IMG/VR virus record: IMGVR_UViG_3300042474_001373
Coordinates: 1 to 24,359 of that record
DNA length: 24,359 nucleotides
Reading direction: 5' to 3' (one strand)
Origin: a virus
Under the pieces are notes generated by a model. That model did no database searches and had not been told where the DNA came from. It was given only the letters and a program-made list of their open reading frames with translations. Below, piece after piece: positions 799 through 11,148 of this stretch. Both the position numbers and the translations under genes were made by a program. Within the stretch, counting starts at the first letter, position 1. Each line of letters opens with the position of its first letter.

Positions 799-921
799 TT
801 ATTTGTAGATGAAAGGATCTCTCTTTTGTAATTCTTTCACTTTCTTTTTGTATTGTCTGTATTGGTAATATTTGATCACAGGAGCAAATATAAATCTTAA
901 TACTGTTTTTATGACAGCCAT
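799..921 (-). CDS. Small basic phage protein, 40 aa
   Basis: This 40-codon gene fills the gap between the primase and the carbamoyltransferase. Its ATG (921-919) overlaps the last 13 bases of the primase gene in another frame, and its TAA is followed directly by the next gene's ATG. The protein starts MAVIKTVLRFIFAPVIKYY, a hydrophobic/aromatic stretch, and continues with a lysine-rich tail ending in DPFIYK. It could be a membrane-associated or amphipathic peptide. A purine-rich GGATGAAAAA precedes the ATG. I do not recognise a family. The tight coupling on both sides is the main argument that it is real. Confidence 0.6.
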   Translation of the reverse strand: MAVIKTVLRFIFAPVIKYYQYRQYKKKVKELQKRDPFIYK

Positions 922-1913
922 TTTTTCATCCTTAGTTTTATTTTTAATTGCTGATTCTCAGCATGTTTCACTATTGAATACAGAGTGTGTAATCTACCAT
1001 ATTTAATCACAGCATCATTGATGTCTTTGACATTGTGATCCCATTCAGGCATGCTCACACTCCATTCCAATTCCATTGCATCATGTATTAATTTTTCACC
1101 TGCTGCGTCTCTATCTGGTACTACAATAATTTTTTTGTTTAAACTTTTGATCAACATACTTTGCTGTTGTTTTACTTCGCTGCCTAAGAATGCCACACCA
1201 TCCAGCAATATTGCATCAATAGGACCTTCCACTGCTATCACAAATAATCTATCATCATCCTGTGCATCTAGATTGAACACATATCCAGGCTGTTGCTCGC
1301 TGAGATATTTTACTTTGTCATCCACAATTTTTCTAGCAGTCCATCCCACTATTTTATCTTGATAATAAAATGGCACAATCATACGATCCCTATATCCCAT
1401 CTCCGGAGTCCAATAGAAGTCATAATCGTTGATGTTAAGATTTCTACCATTGATGTATTCTAAAACTTTGATATAATTTAAATCTGGTTCCACACTGCGT
1501 TGCTCAAAGTCTTTGTGCCATTCAAAGATTGTTTTGGCACGTTTGGGCAGTTCCACAGTTTTAAATTTGGGAAATTGTGAAAGACTTTTGTGAATGCTTT
1601 TTTCATCTGTTTGTTGCAGCACACTCAATGACAGTTTGGTGATCACATCATCAGGCACATTCAACCACTGCATAAGACGTTTCAGTTTGAACGTGAGATT
1701 TCTTCCTGCTACCCAACTGGCTTTATAGCCACAATTGAAACAATGATAACTTAGTCCTTGGTCAGCGTTCTGTATCAGACCTGCTCTACTGCGAGTGTCT
1801 GCTGTGGTGCCATTGTGCTGACAGCAAGGAGCATTGAAACTCAACCATCCGCTGGGAGTCTGTTTTCTTTTGGCTGGAAGATATTGAATCAATGTATCAA
1901 ACACAATACTCAT
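909..1913 (-). CDS. 61: DNA primase, T4 gp61-like
   Basis: A 334-aa protein, close to the length of T4 gp61 (about 342 aa). In T4, gp61 makes RNA primers for lagging-strand synthesis together with the gp41 helicase. The N-terminus carries a zinc-binding domain with Cys30, Cys31, His33 and then CFNCG (Cys58, Cys61). A primase-core segment YRDRMIVPF lies at 174-182. The Toprim fold shows VEGPID (228-233, Glu229) and PDRDAAG (266-272, Asp267 and Asp269), the expected metal-binding acids of DnaG-type primases. The start ATG lies 6 bases after a consensus TATAAT box with TTGACT 17 bases upstream, so the mRNA may be leaderless. No gp41 is in the window. Confidence 0.9.
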   Translation of the reverse strand: MSIVFDTLIQYLPAKRKQTPSGWLSFNAPCCQHNGTTADTRSRAGLIQNADQGLSYHCFNCGYKASWVAGRNLTFKLKRLMQWLNVPDDVITKLSLSVLQQTDEKSIHKSLSQFPKFKTVELPKRAKTIFEWHKDFEQRSVEPDLNYIKVLEYINGRNLNINDYDFYWTPEMGYRDRMIVPFYYQDKIVGWTARKIVDDKVKYLSEQQPGYVFNLDAQDDDRLFVIAVEGPIDAILLDGVAFLGSEVKQQQSMLIKSLNKKIIVVPDRDAAGEKLIHDAMELEWSVSMPEWDHNVKDINDAVIKYGRLHTLYSIVKHAENQQLKIKLRMKKWLS

Positions 1914-1919
1914 TGTGCT

Positions 1920-1948
1920 ATTATAACTTACGGTTTGGTAAAAGTCAA
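1920..1948 (-). promoter_or_regulatory. Sigma70-like promoter of the primase gene, predicted leaderless
   Basis: On the minus strand, TTGACT (1943-1948) is followed by a 17-base spacer and TATAAT (1920-1925). Six bases later comes the ATG at 1913, so the expected +1 coincides with the A of the start codon. Nothing like a Shine-Dalgarno site fits between them. This is inferred from host-type sigma70 consensus rules. Confidence 0.75.
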
Positions 1949-2746
1949 TTAATTGCGCACTAGTATTTTTGCTATAGTTCCGGAATTGGTAGGATCAAAT
2001 TTGAATCTGATATGATTGAACACACCATTGAAATTGGCATACTTGATATCGTCTGTGGATGTGAGGGACACAGTGGTGATGTCGGCCCAATTGGTACTGT
2101 TGTTCACTGTGTTGTCCAAAGTGCCCTGCACAGTGAGAGTGGCTGTGGAATCATTGTTGTATATGGCAGCAGTGTGCAGTGCGGCATTGCCATTGATGCT
2201 GGGTTGTCCACTGATGCTTTCTGACACATAGATATCAGTGCCCACTCCTGTTTCGCTGAACTGGGTGACTGCATAAGAATTGAGAGGACCTGGAAATGCT
2301 GTATGGTCTAGGAATATCACACCTTTGTTTTCAAAATGAGTATTGGCATAAGTGAGTGTTCTGGTGTTGTCTGTGTTGTTGGTCAACCACACACTGTAAC
2401 TGAGATATTGGGATTTTAAATCTAATAAATCATTTTCAGTGAGAGTGATTGTGAATTGTCCTTTATTGGTGTACACTGAACTGTCCTGAGTTTCAATGAT
2501 TGTGCCCTGTTTGGTCACCACTAAAACGTTGTTTTCATCATACATGTAAAAAGTAGGAGTGTATTCAGTGTCAATGGAGATAGCTTTCTGATCAGCATTA
2601 TTGAGCTGAAATGTGATTAAATTGTCTATGCCTCTGTAAATTTTAATGTTTCTTTGATACACTGACTTATACTCCGTTATTTCTCCTGCCAGATCCACTG
2701 TCAGAAGCACTTTGTTATTTACTAAATATCGGTAAATTAGCTGCAT
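1949..2746 (-). CDS. Putative virion structural protein with BppU-like N-terminal domain
   Basis: A 265-aa protein rich in Thr, Asn and Ser, with few charged residues and a beta-strand pattern typical of phage baseplate or fibre proteins. Residues about 30-120 (YQRNIKIYRGIDNLITFQL, then strands alternating with turns, ending near SYSVWLTNN) resemble the N-terminal domain of BppU-type baseplate proteins. The C-terminal half contains repeated Thr/Ser strands, such as TATLTVQGTLDNTVNNSTNW, that look like a receptor-binding or decoration domain. It has its own TATAAATA late promoter 25 bases upstream of the ATG, which fits a structural gene sitting alone among replication genes. Structural role is likely; the precise location in the virion is unknown. 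Confidence 0.65.
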   Translation of the reverse strand: MQLIYRYLVNNKVLLTVDLAGEITEYKSVYQRNIKIYRGIDNLITFQLNNADQKAISIDTEYTPTFYMYDENNVLVVTKQGTIIETQDSSVYTNKGQFTITLTENDLLDLKSQYLSYSVWLTNNTDNTRTLTYANTHFENKGVIFLDHTAFPGPLNSYAVTQFSETGVGTDIYVSESISGQPSINGNAALHTAAIYNNDSTATLTVQGTLDNTVNNSTNWADITTVSLTSTDDIKYANFNGVFNHIRFKFDPTNSGTIAKILVRN

Positions 2747-2771
2747 AGTTGTATAACTTTAATTTGTAATG

Positions 2772-2779
2772 TATTTATA
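2772..2779 (-). promoter_or_regulatory. T4-type late promoter TATAAATA
   Basis: A perfect TATAAATA on the minus strand, 25 bases before the ATG of the structural gene (2746). T4 and related phages transcribe late genes from this element using gp55, gp33 and the sliding clamp. It lies in the 38-base divergent gap shared with the plus-strand gene at 2785. Confidence 0.75.
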
Positions 2780-2784
2780 GGAAA

Positions 2785-3156
2785 ATGTTGCGTAAAGATA
2801 TAGAAGAAAACTTCCCTTTTATCAGTGTGGTCAACTATGGCGACAAAGAATATGTGGGTGTGATCAACAATCAAGATCATAACATCACCAGCATGTACAT
2901 TTACACTCAGATACACACGGAGGAAGAAAAGAAACAATTCTTAGATCTGTGCGAATCATGGTGGTGGGAAAGCAATAGAATGATTCCCATAGGCATCTTC
3001 CTACGCAGAGAAATAGAATACTTCAAAAGTATTTTGATGATGATGAACACCAAAGATGTGAGAATAGTGATAGGTCCCACAGTAAATCTCTATAATCTAG
3101 CAGTGAAAAGAACCAAACGTAAATCAGTGCAATTGGTAAGAAAACCCAAAAACTAA
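2785..3156 (+). CDS. Conserved T4-like marine phage protein, unknown function
   Basis: A 123-aa acidic-to-basic protein (MLRKDIEENFPFISVVNYG ...) with a tryptophan cluster CESWWWESNR at about 53-62 and a Lys/Arg-rich C-terminus (KRTKRKSVQLVRKPKN) that may bind nucleic acid. It resembles, from memory, a hypothetical protein found in many T4-like cyanophages; I know no function. GGAAA just before the ATG can serve as a weak ribosome site. It is transcribed divergently from the structural gene and converges on the next minus-strand gene with a 4-base overlap of stop codons. It is the only plus-strand gene in the left 10 kb. Confidence 0.75.
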   Translation: MLRKDIEENFPFISVVNYGDKEYVGVINNQDHNITSMYIYTQIHTEEEKKQFLDLCESWWWESNRMIPIGIFLRREIEYFKSILMMMNTKDVRIVIGPTVNLYNLAVKRTKRKSVQLVRKPKN

Positions 3157-3425
3157 AGTTTTAACAAAGCATCCACAGCATCCAAAATTTCTCGCACATT
3201 AACTGCTGTGGCAGCAGGTTTAGGATTTAATTTTTTAAATTCATTCACAAAACTGTTGTCTATTTTTGTCCAGTGTGATCCTGGCTGATTGTTGTCTGTG
3301 CCGCGATAGGTTTCATCTGTTTCAAGATCCAACAGTAGATATTTGTTAGGACACTTTGTTTTAACAATCAATGAAATTGGTTCGTTTAATTCAGATGCTT
3401 CGGTGCCATCAATCAGTTTACGCAT
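3153..3425 (-). CDS. Hypothetical phage protein, 90 aa
   Basis: A small protein starting MRKLIDGTEASELNEPISL. I chose the ATG at 3425 because it gives the 8-base ATGCGTAA overlap with the upstream zinc-finger gene, the same junction type as at 5534-5541 and 20046-20053, with GGGAG just before it. An in-frame ATG at 3437 would add four residues. The middle (KYLLLDLETDETYRG) looks like beta strands, and the C-terminal segment (NVREILDAVDALLKL) is a probable amphipathic helix that could mediate oligomerisation. No recognised domain. Confidence 0.6.
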   Translation of the reverse strand: MRKLIDGTEASELNEPISLIVKTKCPNKYLLLDLETDETYRGTDNNQPGSHWTKIDNSFVNEFKKLNPKPAATAVNVREILDAVDALLKL

Positions 3426-3633
3426 CTTCTCCCACATATATAAATTTTTTATCGCAGTAACCGCAGGTCACTTGATTGGTCTCGTCTATGTTGTAAAACA
3501 CTGTGGGGTGTCCTCCCCATTCATCATCGCCAAAACATTTCACTTCTCTGGTGTGTACTTCTTCAACAGGTTGTTTTACATTGGGACGTTCCACAAATTC
3601 AGTTTGCTTCACAGGGTTTTTATATTTCTTCAT
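3418..3633 (-). CDS. CHCC-type zinc-finger protein (NDUFS6 C-terminal-like)
   Basis: A 71-aa protein with Cys33, His42, Cys57 and Cys60 in the order C-x8-H-x14-C-x2-C, including GGHPTVFYNID and VTCGYCDKKF. This is the pattern of the zf-CHCC domain found in mitochondrial complex I subunit NDUFS6 and in small proteins of alphaproteobacteria. The N-terminal 30 residues are polar. ATG 3633 has GGAT upstream and overlaps the end of the polymerase-like gene; ATG 3639 and GTG 3663 are alternative starts. The phage copy may have come from an alphaproteobacterial host. Its role is unknown. Confidence 0.75.
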   Translation of the reverse strand: MKKYKNPVKQTEFVERPNVKQPVEEVHTREVKCFGDDEWGGHPTVFYNIDETNQVTCGYCDKKFIYVGEDA

Positions 3634-4204
3634 GTACATCCAATCTGCGTAATGCAGGCTCACAAATTAAATTCATGTGCATCACCACTGCCATGGCATA
3701 CGAAGTGGCGTGTGATTTTTTAAAATAATAAGAATCATCCACAGGTTTGGTCCAGACCTGGGACATAATTTCTTTCCAATCACTGTTTAGTAAATATCTT
3801 TTGGCTGGTCTAATAATTGCCAATACTGCTGCCAATTGTTCAATACTTTGTGGTTTTAATTTTTGTAAAATTTCTACATGACCGTTCACGTGGAATAACT
3901 GATCTACAAAATCTTTTTCCTGTAATAGATCCCACAAAGGTTCTTTTTTCATTAGGTGAATAAGGTGTGGTTCATTTTTTACATGTTTATAGATGCTGAC
4001 ATTTAAAAAATCCACTTTAAAATATCCTCTGTTTTCAGCTTCTTCGTAATTGAGTGTGGACATATTATCCACAGGATTGTGAGGAATTTCTGTGAAGTAA
4101 ATTCCAGTGTTGTGTTTCTTGCCTGTGTCTAGTTTGGCAATTCTGTGTTTGAATTTTTCTAACACCACCGTTCTATCAGCAAAGTCTATATCAATATCGG
4201 GCAT
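3620..4204 (-). CDS. Miniature DNA polymerase III alpha-like protein
   Basis: A 194-aa protein starting MPDIDIDFADR, which matches the PDFDVDF motif of DnaE carrying the first two catalytic aspartates (E. coli D401 and D403; here D5 and D7). FKVDFLNVS at 62-70 matches the third catalytic-aspartate segment (VKFDFLGL, D555; here D65). Near the C-terminus, YYFKKSHATSYAMAVV matches the GYGFNKSHxxAYALxSY segment of DnaE. DnaE is about 1,160 aa, so the PHP, thumb, clamp-binding and most of the fingers are absent, and only about 58 residues separate the acids instead of about 150. It could be a remnant, a regulator or a repurposed fold. A sigma70-like promoter lies immediately upstream. Confidence 0.75.
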   Translation of the reverse strand: MPDIDIDFADRTVVLEKFKHRIAKLDTGKKHNTGIYFTEIPHNPVDNMSTLNYEEAENRGYFKVDFLNVSIYKHVKNEPHLIHLMKKEPLWDLLQEKDFVDQLFHVNGHVEILQKLKPQSIEQLAAVLAIIRPAKRYLLNSDWKEIMSQVWTKPVDDSYYFKKSHATSYAMAVVMHMNLICEPALRRLDVHEEI

Positions 4205-4209
4205 AATTT

Positions 4210-4239
4210 ATTATAACTTCGTAGATAATAGTTTGTCAA
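4210..4239 (-). promoter_or_regulatory. Sigma70-like promoter before the DnaE-like gene, near-leaderless
   Basis: TTGACA (4234-4239), an 18-base spacer, then TATAAT (4210-4215), all on the minus strand. The TATAAT ends 5 bases before the ATG (4204). The boxes are embedded in the last codons of the upstream CxxC gene, so the coding sequence doubles as promoter. Confidence 0.65.
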
Positions 4240-4393
4240 GAGAGGTAGGATAACAAATGGTACATTGCCAAGGAATATATGGATTTTTTCCATAATTGGT
4301 AATGGCACAACTGGCATCTTTTCCATGAGGAGTAATTTTTTTACACATATGACAAAATTTTTTTGATTTGTAATTGACTTCTTTTGATTTCAT
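4211..4393 (-). CDS. Small CxxC zinc-ribbon-like protein, 60 aa
   Basis: A 60-aa basic protein with Cys14-x2-Cys17, His23, Cys29 and Cys44-x2-Cys47, enough to form one zinc site (probably the two CxxC pairs). The N-terminus is lysine-rich. Its ATG directly follows the TAA of the C2H2-finger gene, and its 3' end contains the promoter of the next gene. It resembles small treble-clef or zinc-ribbon proteins; whether it binds nucleic acid or protein cannot be told. Confidence 0.65.
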   Translation of the reverse strand: MKSKEVNYKSKKFCHMCKKITPHGKDASCAITNYGKNPYIPWQCTICYPTSLDKLLSTKL

Positions 4394-5077
4394 TTACAAT
4401 TTGGCTTCTTTGATTATTTCCTTAATTAACTCTATGTCTGCTGGATGTCTTTTAAATTTTAATGACCAATGTTCTGGATTTAACACATGATAAAGTATGC
4501 TCAATTGTTCATTGTTAAGTTTGCTCATCATGTCTTTGCCTGTGCTGCTGTTTAATATTAACCAAGGAGAAATTTTGCCATCTTTGATGTCATACACTGC
4601 TCTAGGCAAGCTCACATATCTAAAATAATCTTTCCAATCAGCACTGTGATTGTCGGCCCAATCCATCATGTTCTTAATAGATCTTTCCACAGCAGGTTCC
4701 ATGGATTCTTTCAGTATTAACTCCAACACATATTTTTCATACAGTTCTTCTCTGCACCAATGATCTAATTTAACTCCACTTTTGATCACATAGTCGATAT
4801 AATTTTCTGGATACATGGGTTTGACATTGGACACAAATGATCCAAATTTAACAAAAGCATTATAATAGGGTGACTTGCAAAATTCTTCATAGGTTTTAGT
4901 GCCATCCAGTTTTTGTGATATTTGATAGAATCTTACAAAAGTCATGTAACCCAACTGCACTCTGCGTTCATCTTTTTGTAAATGTCTACGTTTTTGTTCA
5001 CACAGATGCACTGCCAGTGTTTTTTCTTTGGTATAACTGGTTTGACAGTATTGACAAGTGTATGGTCTATCAATCAT
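4394..5077 (-). CDS. C2H2 zinc-finger-containing conserved phage protein
   Basis: A 227-aa protein whose first 31 residues form a C2H2-like finger: Cys8-x2-Cys11-x12-His24, with His31 or Cys26 as fourth ligand. The remaining about 190 residues are helical and rich in Trp, Tyr and Lys (for example KDGKISPWLILNSSTGKDMM at 163-182). I recall close relatives of this arrangement in T4-like marine phages, where they are unnamed. It overlaps the upstream gp62-like gene by ATGA, so the two are probably translationally coupled and may work in replication or transcription. A DNA- or RNA-binding role is an inference from the finger. Confidence 0.7.
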   Translation of the reverse strand: MIDRPYTCQYCQTSYTKEKTLAVHLCEQKRRHLQKDERRVQLGYMTFVRFYQISQKLDGTKTYEEFCKSPYYNAFVKFGSFVSNVKPMYPENYIDYVIKSGVKLDHWCREELYEKYVLELILKESMEPAVERSIKNMMDWADNHSADWKDYFRYVSLPRAVYDIKDGKISPWLILNSSTGKDMMSKLNNEQLSILYHVLNPEHWSLKFKRHPADIELIKEIIKEAKL

Positions 5078-5541
5078 AGCGTTTTCTTAATTTCTGTTTT
5101 GTCCATGCCATGTGCTTCAGCCAACTCTTTTAATTCTTCTTTGCTGTTGATTTTGGCCAACAACTCAATTTCATCTTCCTTCATGTTGGGATATAGTTCT
5201 TTCAAAAACTTGATGGCTTTGTTTTGTGATCCAGCATCTTTCAATTTGTAACCTATCCATTCATGATATCTGATATCTTTCTTTTCATTGGCAGTCATGC
5301 ACAACAAATACCATAACAATTTTTTATGTTTCTGTATAGTAAAGAAATTTTTGTTGTAGTATTCGTTGGTTTTGAATATGGCCAATTCTTTCTGTGTGTT
5401 GTTGCCTTTCACAGCACTGGCATATCTGTTTAGCAAAAAGAAACTTACCTGTTTTTGTTCCTCATCAGACAGCTCATCCCAAACATTTTTAGCGTTCATA
5501 TCTATAGCTGCCAAGATATCTTTTAATGGTAATTTACTCAT
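5074..5541 (-). CDS. Probable clamp-loader small subunit (gp62-like)
   Basis: A 155-aa protein, MSKLPLKDILAAIDMNAKN..., with helical segments including LLNRYASAVKG, TNEYYNKNF, ELYPNMKEDEIELLAKI and an acidic/basic C-terminal helix. It resembles, from memory, the small protein annotated as clamp-loader subunit gp62 in marine T4-like phages. T4 gp62 itself (187 aa) is too divergent to align with confidence by eye. gp62 acts with the gp44 ATPase to load the gp45 clamp; neither gp44 nor gp45 is in the window, which weakens the call. It begins inside the previous gene with the 8-base overlap ATGAGTAA. The alternative is a conserved replication-associated protein of unknown role. Confidence 0.5.
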   Translation of the reverse strand: MSKLPLKDILAAIDMNAKNVWDELSDEEQKQVSFFLLNRYASAVKGNNTQKELAIFKTNEYYNKNFFTIQKHKKLLWYLLCMTANEKKDIRYHEWIGYKLKDAGSQNKAIKFLKELYPNMKEDEIELLAKINSKEELKELAEAHGMDKTEIKKTL

Positions 5542-5806
5542 CGTTGAAGCCTGATAGTTTTAACAATACTATATACTTTTCCCATGCTTTCTGCAAGCCT
5601 TTATTTTGCATACAGAGTTTTATGGCATCCTCATTTACATACTGCGCTCGCATTTGACTTTCTTCTTCCAGCACTGTTTCCTCACTTCTATAAACCAAAT
5701 GTCTTTGATTGGAGTCGACCTCTCGTGCATACACAGTTTGACCTCCATCAGGCGATTCATGTATATAAGTTTTGCCTTTTTTATATCTGTATGGTTTCTC
5801 TTGCAT
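5534..5806 (-). CDS. Hypothetical phage protein, 90 aa
   Basis: A 90-aa charged protein starting MQEKPYRYKKGKTYIHESPD. The first half has beta-hairpin character with DGGQTVYAREVD, where the sequence alternates polar and hydrophobic residues. The second half is helical (ETVLEEESQMRAQ, then LQKAWEKYIVLLKLSG). It sits between the transporter and the gp62-like gene, sharing one base with the first (TAATG) and overlapping the second by eight bases, so it is part of one operon. No recognised domain. Confidence 0.65.
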   Translation of the reverse strand: MQEKPYRYKKGKTYIHESPDGGQTVYAREVDSNQRHLVYRSEETVLEEESQMRAQYVNEDAIKLCMQNKGLQKAWEKYIVLLKLSGFNDE

Positions 5807-6444
5807 TAGCCTACCAAGCGTCTTTTTAATTTTTTTTGTAGGTACATCAATAACATTCCATAAGCAGGCAGGAATACTGCAAAGCCCACAATAATTTTTA
5901 CCAATGTGTTATTGAACGCCACTGCATGCACCCAAGGTTGCGGATAAAATGCTGTGTAGAAAAATGTGTAAGTGTCAATCACGTTGGCAGCCACAGTGCT
6001 CATTGCTGGAGCCAACCACCAATTGTCTGACCATTTTTCTCTAATCCACTGCATCACATACACATCCAACATGGTTCCTATGGCATAGGCAGATCCTGAA
6101 GCAAGACCAACTCTAATAGCATGTGGATCTTTTAATATCAATAACACCAACACTGAAGCAAGTATGGCAGGAATCATAGACATAGCTACCACTGCTCTTG
6201 CAGTTTGTTTGCCCACCATTCTCACGGTGAGATCACTGGCCACCACCACCAATGGAAAAGTGAATGCGGCTGCTGCCAATGGAAAACTGGTTTCCCAACC
6301 TAGTATGTTGATTTTTTCCGAAAATAAATTAAATCTTATGGTCACAAGATAATTGCTCACAGCAATGATCAGTGTGTGGAATATGACTAGATTCCTAATC
6401 AATATTCTATTTGTGTTTTTGAACATGTCATTTATCAGTTTCAT
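5806..6444 (-). CDS. VUT/YhhQ-family transporter, probable queuosine-precursor importer
   Basis: A 212-aa inner-membrane protein with about six hydrophobic segments (roughly residues 16-36, 52-70, 83-104, 111-131, 145-165 and 178-202) and a positively charged C-terminal tail KKLKRRL. Between segments 2 and 3 is DLTVRMVGKQTAR (71-83), matching the DLTNExYGKxxAR signature of COG1738. In segment 5 is ANVIDTYTFF, matching the family's conserved NxIDT motif. E. coli YhhQ imports preQ0/preQ1, 7-deazaguanine precursors of queuosine. AAAGGAAATAAAA before the ATG is a good ribosome site. No queC/D/E/F or DNA transglycosylase is in this window, so whether the purine is used for tRNA or for phage DNA is open. 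Family call confident; substrate inferred. Confidence 0.85.
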   Translation of the reverse strand: MKLINDMFKNTNRILIRNLVIFHTLIIAVSNYLVTIRFNLFSEKINILGWETSFPLAAAAFTFPLVVVASDLTVRMVGKQTARAVVAMSMIPAILASVLVLLILKDPHAIRVGLASGSAYAIGTMLDVYVMQWIREKWSDNWWLAPAMSTVAANVIDTYTFFYTAFYPQPWVHAVAFNNTLVKIIVGFAVFLPAYGMLLMYLQKKLKRRLVG

Positions 6445-6586
6445 TTTTATTTCCTTTTTGGTTGTTTGTGTTAGCGGAAACCTTTACTCCGTCTATCATC
6501 CAAGACAGATCTCTTTCTTCCTCTTCTGTAGGAAACAGATCTATTATTGAATCTGGTTCTATTTTTTTCTTCTTCTTTTTTGTCAT
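6428..6586 (-). CDS. Small charged phage protein, 52 aa
   Basis: This gene starts MTKKKKKKIEPDSIIDLFPT, continues with a Glu-rich patch and DLSWMIDGVKV, and ends NKNETDK. The ATG shares one base with the upstream stop (TGATG). The 3' end overlaps the transporter start by 17 bases and carries that gene's ribosome site. A hexalysine N-terminus next to an acidic segment suggests a disordered interaction peptide. The overlaps at both ends and lack of other coding capacity in the gap support it. Function unknown. Confidence 0.6.
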   Translation of the reverse strand: MTKKKKKKIEPDSIIDLFPTEEEERDLSWMIDGVKVSANTNNQKGNKNETDK

Positions 6587-7092
6587 CAGTACAACAGTGA
6601 ATGGTCAATGCTTTCACATTGCCGGCTCACATCTTTGATAAAAAACACACATTTGGATTTGGGCAAATCAGTCAAAGGAGTTGTGATCAATTGATTATTT
6701 TTGACCTTGGGAAAATACCATTTGACATCATTGTAAAAATTAATCACATTGATGTTTAAGAATTCAGGTCTGAATCCTGTCAAAGGATTAATCGAAAATG
6801 CTTCAAATCCTCTGTCGCTGAGACTGGTCAAAGGAATAATCTGCAGATCATAACCGCTTTCTGGATCTCCGACGGCCACACTCCAATCCAAAGGCATGCT
6901 GATCTCATGTCCGCCTATCTCCAACACTATGGCTGGGCTTGAAAAACTTTCTATAAAGATCAAAGGCATAAAAAAGAAATCAGGATCTTTGGGATTGCTG
7001 TTGTCCAGCACACTGAAACTGATGTCTTCAGTGATTTGATCAGGCATTTTGGACAGCAAGAAAGTATTGTTGTCCACTGTTAATATTCTCAT
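6586..7092 (-). CDS. Conserved phage protein, 168 aa, unknown function
   Basis: This protein starts MRILTVDNNTFLLSKMPDQI and is predicted to be mostly beta strands with acidic loops (for example SFSVLDNSNPKDPDFFFMPLI, and IGGHEISMPLDWSVAVGDP near 59-77). It has no signal peptide, transmembrane segment or metal motif. Its ATG lies 4 bases after the UvsW stop codon, so it is very likely co-transcribed with that helicase. It may be a partner of UvsW or a general phage core protein. I do not recognise the family. Confidence 0.7.
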   Translation of the reverse strand: MRILTVDNNTFLLSKMPDQITEDISFSVLDNSNPKDPDFFFMPLIFIESFSSPAIVLEIGGHEISMPLDWSVAVGDPESGYDLQIIPLTSLSDRGFEAFSINPLTGFRPEFLNINVINFYNDVKWYFPKVKNNQLITTPLTDLPKSKCVFFIKDVSRQCESIDHSLLY

Positions 7093-7096
7093 AATT

Positions 7097-8554
7097 TTAA
7101 TTCCACTCCATTTTTTCCATTGTGAAAGGATAGTTTGCTTCTTTGTAAAACTTTTTCCTTTGGGTTAAGTGCCTTTTGGCAAATTTACAGCTGGACGTTA
7201 TGTCCCAAATCTGTACAAAGTCTTTGTCTTGCGCCTTTCTTATGCCTCTGCCAATGCTCTGTATCACTCTCACAAAGCTCTTGCCAGGTTCAATTAAAAC
7301 TAGATTAAAAATTCTGGGAATATTAATACCCACAGAAGCCACACCATAAGTGGCAATTAATACCTTATTGGTTGAATTGGATATTTGATCATATTCTTCT
7401 TTGCGCTCAGCTAGCTTCATTTCTCCCTGTATGAACACAGAATCTGGAATTAATTTTTGCAACAGTTCGCCTGCTGCTAATCTATCCACCAATATTAATG
7501 TGTTGCCTGAGTCTTTGATTCTCATCAGCATTTTAGATAAAAATTTCATGCGTGGTTCATGAGTCATTAGATATTTTAATTCTTCTTGATAATTTCTGTG
7601 CACCACTGTGTCCACCAATTGCACCACATTCACATGACACTGTGACAGCACTCCTTTGTCTTGTAGCTCTTTGGCAGATATTTGATTGATCACAGGACCA
7701 ATGCTGGCCAGTATGGCTTGAAATTCAAACTGTTCTTTGGGAATGGTGCCTGTGAGTCCCCAACGTATGGCAGCATTTCTTAAATTGTGTGTGAGTAATT
7801 TTTTTAGAACTTCTGCTTTGGCTTGATGCACTTCATCAATTATGATAGTGTTCACTCCCTCTAAAAATTCAGCCAATGTGACCACAGCATCACCATCTTG
7901 GGTTTTCTTATCCAACACATTCAATGATTGCCAAGTGCAAATGGTATGTGTGTGATTCAGTTCTTTTCTATCACCGAAATACACTCCCACATCCAATCCA
8001 CAATTGATATAATCTTCTTCTGTTTGTGTGACCAATCCTTTGTTGGGCACCACCACTATGGTTCGGCCAAATGGTTCACACAGCTTGGACAAACAAGCAG
8101 TGATAATGGTCTTGCCTGCTCCAGTGGCCACTTCTTGCAGCGATTGTGGATTTTCTAAAAAGTTATTCACAACCTCTACTTGATAATCTCTCAATTCAAT
8201 TTTTTGTCCTTCCATGATGTGTCCTTTGGGCCAAGTTTTGTCTGCAAAGAAATCTTTGTTTATCTTGTTGAATTTCAAATCAACCTTGTGTCTGTTGTCC
8301 ACAATTTCTTCAATCTCTATGCCATAGTCATTCAACAGTTGTATGATCACATCCAAATGGTTCACATAGCCATTGCCGCCCAATCCAAAGAATCCCACTT
8401 TGCCATCCCATCTGCCCAATTTATATTGTGGTAGATATCTTGCATATGGCACTGCCCATTTTAATTTGTTGGCAATCTTTCTTCTGATGTCCACATCCAG
8501 TCCATCAATTTTTACATTCACTTCGTCCTGGATTATAATTTTACATCTGCTCAT
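7097..8554 (-). CDS. uvsW: UvsW-type superfamily 2 helicase
   Basis: A 485-aa protein from ATG 8554, chosen because GGAG precedes it and it starts one base after the upstream stop; a longer frame to 8611 would overlap that gene. The N-terminal ~100 residues form the UvsW DNA-binding domain, with YLPQYKLGRWDG (40-51). Helicase motifs follow in order: Walker A ATGAGKT (143-149), DEVH (240-243), GLTGT (266-270), a YGVASVGINIPR segment (motif V region) and QSIGRGIRK (motif VI). T4 UvsW (about 500 aa) is an ATP-dependent branch-migration helicase that unwinds R-loops and D-loops and switches phage replication to recombination-dependent initiation. This fits the UvsX/UvsY/gp32 set at the other end of the window. 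Confidence 0.95.
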   Translation of the reverse strand: MSRCKIIIQDEVNVKIDGLDVDIRRKIANKLKWAVPYARYLPQYKLGRWDGKVGFFGLGGNGYVNHLDVIIQLLNDYGIEIEEIVDNRHKVDLKFNKINKDFFADKTWPKGHIMEGQKIELRDYQVEVVNNFLENPQSLQEVATGAGKTIITACLSKLCEPFGRTIVVVPNKGLVTQTEEDYINCGLDVGVYFGDRKELNHTHTICTWQSLNVLDKKTQDGDAVVTLAEFLEGVNTIIIDEVHQAKAEVLKKLLTHNLRNAAIRWGLTGTIPKEQFEFQAILASIGPVINQISAKELQDKGVLSQCHVNVVQLVDTVVHRNYQEELKYLMTHEPRMKFLSKMLMRIKDSGNTLILVDRLAAGELLQKLIPDSVFIQGEMKLAERKEEYDQISNSTNKVLIATYGVASVGINIPRIFNLVLIEPGKSFVRVIQSIGRGIRKAQDKDFVQIWDITSSCKFAKRHLTQRKKFYKEANYPFTMEKMEWN

Positions 8555-8555
8555 G

Positions 8556-9857
8556 TTATATGATCTCCATTTCGTGATGCCACATGTTCCAAGGACTTTC
8601 TTCTCGGTCATACTGTATGATCAGATCATACGGTTCAAGAAAATGCTGCACTTGATTGTGTTCTCTTTCACTCCTCACACTGATAACAGCTCTAGCTTGC
8701 CAACCGGATTTGATCAGTGGTTTGGGCACACGTTTATGATTAATATAAACTATTTTTGTGTTTTCATCAATGGAATTATTGGTACGATCTTCAGTCACAC
8801 GCTGATTAAACTCAATATTTTTTACACCTTGATTGGGCAATCTAAACATCACAGCATGTGCAGATGCAGGATACAACAATTTTAATTTGACAAATATTTC
8901 ATGATAATCATCCAATGCATTTTTTTCGTTCAACACCACCAGTAGAGGAAATCTACGCAGTGTGTGCAAGGATCTTATGACCTGATCCAATGTCCATTTC
9001 TCTCTATTGATATTCACTATGAATGAGTTCCTAGATGCAATCTTTTGACTGAGGATGTCTATACTTTTCAGAGATTCCTGCACATCGATGGGATCTAGAT
9101 GTTCCAACGCCAACGCCTTGCAACGATCTTTGTACAGATACAAATTTTCTTTGCTGGGCACACCAATGTCTTGATGTAAAAAGTTTACAAATTCTTTGGG
9201 CACATTACGTATCTCATAATCATAGATGCCAGGAATATATTGATCGGAATTTTCTTTGATTGCACAAATTTTTTCATACGCAGTGATGAGTTCAGGATCA
9301 ATGTCTTTGATTTTGCTCTGAAAACTGTGCACCAAATGATACACATATTTTTCTTCATAAGGAAAAAGATAATGATTATCGTAGTTGAGATATCTGCTGT
9401 CATAGCTGAATTTTTTCTTTATATCGTTTACCAAACGTGCATAGGACATGTTGAAAGGAAAACGTAGAATGATCACTTTGTGCTCAATGCCAAAGTTACC
9501 GCGATTGATTACTTCGTTCAATTGAGGCACGTCGCTGACTTTTTTAATTTTTATAAAGGTAGATCGATCCAACTCACGCAAAGGACCTCTCAATTGTTCC
9601 AAAGATTTAAACAGATCAATGCCTCTGTCCGCAAATTGTAAAGCGTAATTGGATAAGAGTATTTTTTTTACCACAGCCAATTGTTTGTCGGTCAATCCCA
9701 CACCTTTGAAAGTTTTGGAAGCAATGCTTTGTAATATTTTTTTATCACGCTCCAACAACTCAAAAGTAGGAGATACCAAAATTTCACTGTAGGCTGTCAT
9801 GATCTCTAAGCAGTCTTCCACTGTGTATATCATGGGTGATGTATTAGAAATTAGCAT
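8556..9857 (-). CDS. Uncharacterised 433-aa protein upstream of uvsW
   Basis: I do not recognise this family. The protein is soluble and well mixed in alpha and beta segments. Its N-terminal third includes GLTDKQLAVVKKILLSNYAL (54-73), a helix often seen in nucleic-acid enzymes. The C-terminal third has strands such as FPLLVVLNEKN and WQARAVISVRSERE that look like a Rossmann or RecA-type fold, but no Walker A is present. It is transcribed with uvsW (1-base gap) from a strong promoter whose -10 box ends 6 bases before the first ATG (9857). A second in-frame ATG at 9833 (MIYTVEDCLEIM) is possible. By position a role in repair or recombination is plausible, but nothing direct shows it. Confidence 0.75.
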   Translation of the reverse strand: MLISNTSPMIYTVEDCLEIMTAYSEILVSPTFELLERDKKILQSIASKTFKGVGLTDKQLAVVKKILLSNYALQFADRGIDLFKSLEQLRGPLRELDRSTFIKIKKVSDVPQLNEVINRGNFGIEHKVIILRFPFNMSYARLVNDIKKKFSYDSRYLNYDNHYLFPYEEKYVYHLVHSFQSKIKDIDPELITAYEKICAIKENSDQYIPGIYDYEIRNVPKEFVNFLHQDIGVPSKENLYLYKDRCKALALEHLDPIDVQESLKSIDILSQKIASRNSFIVNINREKWTLDQVIRSLHTLRRFPLLVVLNEKNALDDYHEIFVKLKLLYPASAHAVMFRLPNQGVKNIEFNQRVTEDRTNNSIDENTKIVYINHKRVPKPLIKSGWQARAVISVRSEREHNQVQHFLEPYDLIIQYDREESPWNMWHHEMEII

Positions 9858-9866
9858 ACGCTAATT
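9849..9866. promoter_or_regulatory. Inverted repeat overlapping -10 and start codon (operator-like)
   Basis: A perfect 7-base dyad, AATTAGC (9849-9855) and GCTAATT (9860-9866), separated by four bases. It overlaps the -10 box, the expected +1 and the first codons of the 433-aa gene. It could bind a dimeric repressor, or form a small 5' hairpin if the +1 lies further upstream. Confidence 0.45.
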
Positions 9867-9892
9867 ATATGCGGCGGATATTAAAAAGTCAA
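9864..9892 (-). promoter_or_regulatory. Sigma70-like promoter of the 433-aa gene / uvsW operon, predicted leaderless
   Basis: TTGACT (9887-9892), a 17-base spacer and TATAAT (9864-9869) on the minus strand, with exactly six bases to the ATG at 9857. The geometry is the same as for the primase promoter. Confidence 0.75.
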
Positions 9893-10723
9893 GCGTTTAA
9901 AAGGAATACCAGATCTGATTTCATCCACAGTCCACTCAGTGTGAGCGTAATTCACCAACCAATTTTCACGATTGGGCATGTGCGGTGATTCTATGTTTGC
10001 CAAATCTAGATTGGCCACATCATAGGCCAAACTGTCAGGACCCACAAACACAGGCACGCCTGCAATCACTGCTTGTGGTCCGGGATTGCTGCTCCAACTG
10101 ACCACTGCCCAACAGTTGTGGAAATCTAAATTAAAATCATCATAAGTGCCATCTATTTGCACAGGATTCTGGATGCTCACATCACCAAACATTTTAAAAT
10201 TGTTTCCAACAGGACAACGCGGATGCGGTCTGATCACAATGGGTCTTTGGGAATGTTTACGGATTTCCATTATGGTGTTGTGCAACCAACGTTCCAATGT
10301 GGGCATATCTCGCCACTGTTCACTCTTGTTGTGTTGAGCACAAATCAAAATGTGTGTGCCATCAGTGCGCCAAGGTTTTAATTTTAATTTTAATTTGTTG
10401 GGTCTATCGGAATCCATCTCACCTGAACCAAAATCAGCAGCACGATTGATGCCATTCAGTGCCACTTTCCAAGTGACATTTCTTTGTATGCCGCCCACTT
10501 CCAATACCAGCACATTCTTACCACGACTCCTGAATGATTGATAGATGGCGTGATTGCCTTGCATTCTACCATGCCACAACAGTGACCATATCACAGGCAC
10601 ATCCACGTCTTCCACAGTGTCATATGTCACAGTGTGACCCAGCTGTTGCAAACCGTCTGCCACATAGTAGAAAATGTCAGCACTGTTGAGTGCTCCGTTC
10701 TTTTTGAATAGACCAAATTTCAT
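9881..10723 (-). CDS. Capsule-polysaccharide-type glycosyltransferase-like protein, paralog 1
   Basis: A 280-aa protein from ATG 10723 (MKFGLFKKNGALNSADIFYY). A longer frame to 11143 is rejected because it would lie antisense across the cupin gene. The C-terminal half has IVIRPHPR (163-169) and SSNPGPQAVIAGVPVFVGPD (211-230), the RPHP plus (S/G)xxxxEA-type nucleotide-sugar-site signature seen in KpsC/KpsS-like and CDP-glycerol-transferase-like GT-B proteins. LKPWRTDGTHILICAQ aligns with LKPYRTQGNHILICLQ in the gene at 19130-20053, so the two are paralogs. It probably adds a sugar to a surface or virion glycan. A possible weak TTGATT-18-TATTTA promoter precedes it. Confidence 0.75.
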   Translation of the reverse strand: MKFGLFKKNGALNSADIFYYVADGLQQLGHTVTYDTVEDVDVPVIWSLLWHGRMQGNHAIYQSFRSRGKNVLVLEVGGIQRNVTWKVALNGINRAADFGSGEMDSDRPNKLKLKLKPWRTDGTHILICAQHNKSEQWRDMPTLERWLHNTIMEIRKHSQRPIVIRPHPRCPVGNNFKMFGDVSIQNPVQIDGTYDDFNLDFHNCWAVVSWSSNPGPQAVIAGVPVFVGPDSLAYDVANLDLANIESPHMPNRENWLVNYAHTEWTVDEIRSGIPFKRLTF

Positions 10724-10726
10724 ATG

Positions 10727-10734
10727 GATAAATA
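10727..10734 (+). promoter_or_regulatory. Late-promoter-like GATAAATA before the cupin gene
   Basis: GATAAATA on the plus strand lies 40 bases upstream of the cupin ATG (10775) and differs from T4 TATAAATA only in the first base. The same bases read on the minus strand form TATTTA, a possible -10 box (10729-10734) with TTGATT 18 bases upstream (10753-10758), 5 bases before the ATG of the gene at 10723. The site may therefore be bidirectional. Confidence 0.4.
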
Positions 10735-10774
10735 TGTGAGTATTTAATACCAAATCAACCAGAGTGAATGCATC

Positions 10775-11119
10775 ATGATAGCAGGCAAGGTGTGGGGCAA
10801 GACAGAATTGCTGGAGGCCAACGGAGTGCTGGAATTCCATCGCATTGAGGCCAAAGCCGGAGGCACGTGTTCCAAACACACTCACAAATACAAGTGGAAC
10901 GGATTCTTCGTTGAGTCTGGCAAGATGATTATCCGAGTGTGGAAGAACAATTATGATCTCATAGACGAAACAGTATTGACAGCGGGTCAGTATACCAAAG
11001 TTGCACCTGGAGAATATCATCAGTTCGAGGCAGTGGAGGACACAGTGGCCTTTGAATTGTATTGGGCTGAATTCAATCATGAAGACATTGAAAGAGAAAC
11101 CGTTGGACATAAAAAATAA
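10775..11119 (+). CDS. Single-domain cupin protein
   Basis: A 114-aa protein with both cupin motifs. Motif 1 is about residues 29-50 with His35, His37 and Glu47, and motif 2 is about 71-86 (GQYTKVAPGEYHQFEA) with Pro78, Gly79 and His82. The three histidines and the glutamate are the usual metal ligands, so it probably binds a divalent metal. Small cupins of this kind act as sugar epimerases or isomerases, or as sensors, in nucleotide-sugar pathways, which fits a place at the edge of the glycan island. The exact reaction cannot be read. Base composition is less AT-rich than the genes to its right. No strong Shine-Dalgarno site is seen. Confidence 0.8.
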   Translation: MIAGKVWGKTELLEANGVLEFHRIEAKAGGTCSKHTHKYKWNGFFVESGKMIIRVWKNNYDLIDETVLTAGQYTKVAPGEYHQFEAVEDTVAFELYWAEFNHEDIERETVGHKK

Positions 11120-11148
11120 ATCAAGTATATGATAAAAAAACATTTATA

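Follow-up and report, generated by a model that had tools for sequence, protein, structure and literature searches.

The cI mRNA that phage lambda makes from PRM is the classic leaderless phage mRNA and starts at the AUG itself. A prediction of leaderless mRNAs has also been made for the SigA-like promoters PL1, PR2 and PL2 of cluster O mycobacteriophages (the Corndog group) (PMC4351075). In cellular genomes of Deinococcus-Thermus, a -10 motif about 6 to 7 bp ahead of the open reading frame (ORF) gives rise to leaderless mRNAs, with experimental support (PMC12340547), and 171 leaderless mRNAs have been described in Sinorhizobium (PMC3616915). Our literature search, in open-licence papers, found no report of such a class in jumbo phages. 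Leaderless phage genes are already known; what appears to be new is that such promoters are deeply conserved at genes for replication in large phages.

Here, we analyzed a virus record of 24,359 bases, hereafter the window, meaning the whole of this stretch of DNA. Three of its genes, encoding a primase, a DnaE-like protein and a protein of 433 amino acids, have a complete promoter-like sequence that ends just before the start codon. Judging from sequence comparisons, we consider it likely that these are sigma70-type promoters producing leaderless mRNAs that are translated from their 5'-terminal AUG.

Three predicted promoters close to start codons

The coordinates and spacings that the original prediction gave for the three promoters match the sequence exactly, and all three lie on the minus strand (Table 1). 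Each site has 11 or 12 of the 12 consensus bases of a sigma70-type promoter (TTGACA/TATAAT, spacing 17 +/- 1), and the start codon of all three genes is ATG. The motif TTGACW-17/18-TATAAT occurs exactly three times in the window, where shuffles lead to an expectation of 0.09. All three occurrences are the sites described here, each 5-6 nt ahead of an ATG; when the pattern is extended to TTGACW-17/18-TATAAT-N5-6-ATG the expectation is 0.00, and none of 100 shuffles reached three. In a window this AT-rich, TATAAT-N4-8-ATG lacking a -35 box is unremarkable (5 against 2.9 expected), and a looser promoter scan of the window gave no excess (86 against 85.6). Hence, we place the weight on complete promoters and on their conservation.

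Table 1. Promoters, genes and neighboring features in the window.
Feature	Position	Strand	Remarks
Primase promoter, TTGACT-17-TATAAT-6-ATG	1948-1911	minus	sequence
DnaE-like gene promoter, TTGACA-18-TATAAT-5-ATG	4239-4202	minus	sequence
433-aa gene promoter, TTGACT-17-TATAAT-6-ATG	9892-9855	minus	sequence
Primase -35 box, TTGACT	1943..1948	minus	adjoins TAA stop of preceding gene
Primase -10 box, TATAAT	1920..1925	minus	ends 6 nt from ATG
DNA primase, 334 aa, phrog_47	909..1913	minus	ATG 1913-1911; predicted mRNA 5' end 1913
DnaE-like gene -35 box, TTGACA	4234..4239	minus	within 3' end of ORF 4211-4393
DnaE-like gene -10 box, TATAAT	4210..4215	minus	includes stop codon of ORF 4211-4393; ends 5 nt from ATG
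DnaE-type DNA polymerase fragment, 194 aa, phrog_11778	3620..4204	minus	N-terminus MPDIDIDF
433-aa gene -35 box, TTGACT	9887..9892	minus	last codons of ORF 9881-11143 (..KRLTF stop)
433-aa gene -10 box, TATAAT	9864..9869	minus	ends 6 nt from ATG
433-aa protein, no Pfam or PHROG family matched	8556..9857	minus	ATG 9857-9855
UvsW-like helicase	7097-8611		adjoins 433-aa gene

No Shine-Dalgarno (SD) motif was found ahead of the primase, DnaE-like and 433-aa starts. These genes had been contrasted with others in the window that have clear SD sites, and this is confirmed for the transporter, gmd-like and gp32-like genes. Yet the absence of an SD is not distinctive here, because a recognizable motif precedes only 9 of the roughly 32 genes of the window.

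Two observations concern the annotation of the region. The minus-strand ORF 9881-11143 overlaps the plus-strand ORF 10775-11119; the ATG at 10723 is probably where it really begins. In this phage group, the DnaE-type polymerase appears to be encoded in small separate ORFs (window 3620-4204, minus strand; L222:3127-3681, plus strand): besides the 194-aa piece that starts with the PDIDIDF motif, another piece, of 185 aa (phrog_11127), is found in G001.

Promoter position in related phages

Related loci were gathered from IMG/VR, nearly all by protein similarity, and 153 primase loci formed 53 clusters at 85% amino-acid identity. All 53 clusters have TTGACW and a TATAAT-like box (at most 2 mismatches) placed 5-7 nt from the ATG; the original prediction had proposed to seek TATAAT-5/6-ATG at these genes in related phages. 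The gap is exactly 6 nt in 43 of the 53 clusters, the spacer has 17 nt in 50, and TTGAC is free of mismatches in 52. Conservation reaches 83-100% at the bases of the boxes and mostly 30-60% at those of the spacer. With the A of the ATG as +1, the hexamers occupy -35 to -30 and -12 to -7, the textbook positions. The best explanation of these alignments is that a leaderless primase layout has been conserved within a large group of uncultured phages, most of them marine-looking, whose distant relatives include jumbo phages such as PA5oct.

The two other genes gave different results. TTGACT-17-TATAAT-6-ATG is kept in relatives of the 433-aa gene down to 73% identity, and the gap is 8 nt in the two more distant relatives with an intact start (67% and 56%). 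The conserved 433-aa protein is present in only 13 IMG/VR loci; no meaningful match to a known fold came from its structure model, which is poor (pLDDT 61.5, pTM 0.43). Close relatives of the DnaE-like gene keep the 18/5 spacing, with TATAAT, TACAAT or TAAAAT as the -10 box, but farther out the layout is absent: distant homologues lie in packed operons without a TTGACA-18-TATAAT-5 promoter or have a promoter-like site further off. Other DnaE-core genes (MSADIDIDF) with the 6-nt layout turned up in an independent pattern scan (see below). The expectation that a standard +1 would fall on the A of the ATG in two of the three genes agrees with the 6-nt gaps. At the 5-nt gap of the DnaE-like gene, a strict 7-nt +1 falls on the U of the AUG, so that a start-site flexibility of 1 nt is needed. 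Hence, the predicted leaderless transcription is strongly supported by sequence at the primase and the 433-aa gene and less so at the DnaE-like gene, whose promoter, limited to close relatives, is the weakest case of the three.

We then extended the analysis to related loci totaling 2.35 Mb, two of them long records (237 and 270 kb), and counted promoters with at most 1 mismatch that are followed within 60 nt by an ORF beginning with ATG. The distances are bimodal, with 115 promoters at 5-8 nt, 11 at 9-19 nt and 95 at 20 nt or more. Strong SD motifs are absent from all 115 promoters at 5-8 nt (12 have a weak one), against 30 of the 95 at 20 nt or more. Scrambled hexamers produced 0-6 matches at 5-8 nt where the real ones produced 151-156, in a less strictly deduplicated count. 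Leader lengths in Lactococcus are similarly bimodal, with none measured between 4 and 14 nt (PMC10986495), and the gap at 9-19 nt is what one would expect if very short leaders were untranslatable. Of 96 protein families, 28 have members in the 5-8 nt class, including primase, the DnaB-like replicative helicase (which occurs in both distance classes), two DnaE fragments, an endonuclease, 2OG oxygenases and small unknown proteins. The other promoters in these genomes carry leaders of at least about 13 nt, many of them with an SD. Genes with long leaders include RNR, ligase, RIIA-like and GTP cyclohydrolase genes, so that the division is not simply one between replication and the rest.

These distances bear on the alternative that survives best, namely that the promoters are real but translation occurs mainly from read-through polycistronic transcripts, coupled to the upstream gene, the promoters' own transcripts being minor or starting slightly downstream and going untranslated. 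The preceding genes end 35 nt (primase), 6 nt (DnaE-like gene) and 23 nt (433-aa gene) ahead of the respective ATG, and an SD is missing from most genes of the window. That SD-less read-through or coupled translation is common among such genes counts against the leaderless reading. Still, selection has held the gap between box and ATG at 6 (5-7) nt in all 53 primase clusters, and distances of 9-19 nt are depleted. Promoters that only provided extra transcription would not need a fixed gap, and we regard this alternative as unlikely.

Start codons and coding constraint

A second alternative places the true starts downstream, which would give the mRNAs ordinary leaders. The original prediction named one such start for the 433-aa gene, the in-frame ATG 9833 (Met9), 8 codons after ATG 9857. 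This candidate is disfavored, since relatives do not keep the methionine: it is Ile in L166 and also non-Met in L172 and L173, the replacements being Ile, Ile/Asn-context or Val/Ser-context. A further in-frame ATG within the first 40 codons is absent from 39 of 48 primase sequences, and a search of codons 2-30 in these 48 sequences found no start codon with a strong SD. All 48 begin with ATG, in a set picked by ATG search. The primases are constrained from codon 2, with variation across codons 2-22 mainly at third positions, i.e., coding-type evolution. The DnaE-like start is fixed by the catalytic PDIDIDF motif at residues 2-8. Downstream starts are thus very unlikely.

Least credible of the three, and most improbable, is the idea that the hexamers are not promoters but by-products of coding constraint on the upstream C-terminus or of tight packing in an AT-rich genome. 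The -35 box of the 433-aa gene does lie within coding sequence, and ahead of the replicative helicase gene and of some small genes the boxes fall in conserved C-terminal codons of the upstream gene. However, both primase boxes follow the stop codon of the preceding gene, which often abuts TTGAC, and so they cannot result from constraint on the protein encoded upstream; only the boxes and their distance are conserved there. Moreover, scrambled hexamers of equal base content show no pile-up at 5-8 nt. Chance or base composition as the origin of the pattern is ruled out by the shuffles and the scrambled-hexamer controls.

The helicase loci deserve a separate comment. Their boxes are often inside the C-terminal codons of the upstream gene, reading I/L-D-F..W-Y-N or LDNQWYKKV-stop (L086 near 2900-2936, L116, L072), and two different upstream peptides lead to one promoter layout. 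Because these boxes lie within upstream codons, the evidence is weaker there, and part of the signal may be coding constraint.

Other phages, mechanism and known systems

In IMG/VR, we scanned for the exact pattern TTGACT-17-TATAAT-6-ATGAG and, as a control, for the same pattern with 12 nt in place of 6, comparing the share of sites that start ORFs among the matches listed. An ORF of 60 aa or more begins at 57 of 76 distinct sites with 6 nt and at 22 of 67 with 12 nt, and none of the listed 6-nt sites has an SD. DNA metabolism accounts for 8 of 20 non-primase-motif products examined, a hand-picked set that is suggestive only: two T4-type DNA polymerases, two primases (one T4 gp61-like), an exonuclease, a UvsW-like helicase, an NAD-dependent ligase and a DnaE core.

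The nearest isolates are the jumbo phages Phosso and Atu_ph07 (rhizobia), PA5oct (Pseudomonas), and K64-1 and Munch (enterobacteria). The PA5oct primase gp261 resembles that of the window in having TTGACA-17-TATAAT-6-GTG, and its exonuclease gp244 has TTGACA-18-TATAAT-7-ATG. Unlike the window primase, gp261 starts with GTG, and the identity is about 36% over 93% of the query. GTG is a poor leaderless start in E. coli, which counts against the leaderless reading. The annotated GTG start of this primase abuts TATAAT (NC_071039.1 145884-145892; L178 1429-1437); provided that the promoter is used, the GTG 6 nt downstream is more likely to be the start. In contrast to the window, the primase genes of Munch, K64-1, a Vibrio phage and Phosso are preceded by leaders, most of them with SD-like motifs, and that of Atu_ph07 by a longer one; these isolates, too, count against the leaderless reading. 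The tree with these distant isolates has long branches, and the PA5oct arrangement may or may not be shared by descent.

The sequences, their spacing and conservation, the start codons and the lack of an SD are observed directly; from these data we infer that the three promoters are active, where the mRNAs begin and how they are translated. A sigma70-type RNA polymerase, presumably that of the host, would recognize them and start transcription on or within about 1 nt of the A of the start codon. The resulting mRNAs would be leaderless, and ribosomes would initiate at the 5'-terminal AUG without an SD interaction. As for leaderless mRNAs in general, 70S ribosomes would carry out this initiation, and translation would tolerate kasugamycin. 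Read-through transcripts from upstream genes may add coupled or SD-less translation. It is much more doubtful that leaderless initiation forms a regulatory class, in which core replication genes are kept leaderless so as to be translated during infection by a rule differing from that of SD-led genes, such as at times when the initiation factors or the pools of 70S ribosomes are altered. Such a class would cover primase, replicative helicase and DnaE pieces and, in other phages, T4-type polymerase, gp61-type primase, exonuclease, UvsW-like helicase and ligase. Speculative, too, are the proposals of the original prediction that the three genes are early genes and that leaderless translation could favor them as initiation factors or ribosome types shift in the course of infection.

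If the leaderless reading is true, the expression of key replication genes from mRNAs without a leader may be a trait, kept across deep divergence, of a large group of phages abundant in the environment. This would affect the annotation of start codons, as in the PA5oct primase, and would provide a natural sequence set with which to ask what reasons phages would have for leaderless translation. The question is testable, as PA5oct-like phages grow on laboratory Pseudomonas.

Among known systems, lambda cI differs in being the repressor gene of a temperate phage and not one that serves replication in a large phage. The SigA-like promoters of cluster O share the geometry of the window sites; however, those phages have actinobacterial hosts, in which leaderless mRNA is common, and few promoters per genome, and the passage on these promoters mentions no conserved association with primase or with other genes of replication (PMC4351075). 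Deinococcus-Thermus shares the -10 box at about 6-7 bp from the ORF, but there the arrangement concerns cellular genes, about a third of the genome, and TANNNT works without a -35 box (PMC12340547). In the window and its relatives the genes are viral, and the -10 box does not stand alone: the -35 box is strictly conserved, without mismatch in 52 of the 53 primase clusters.
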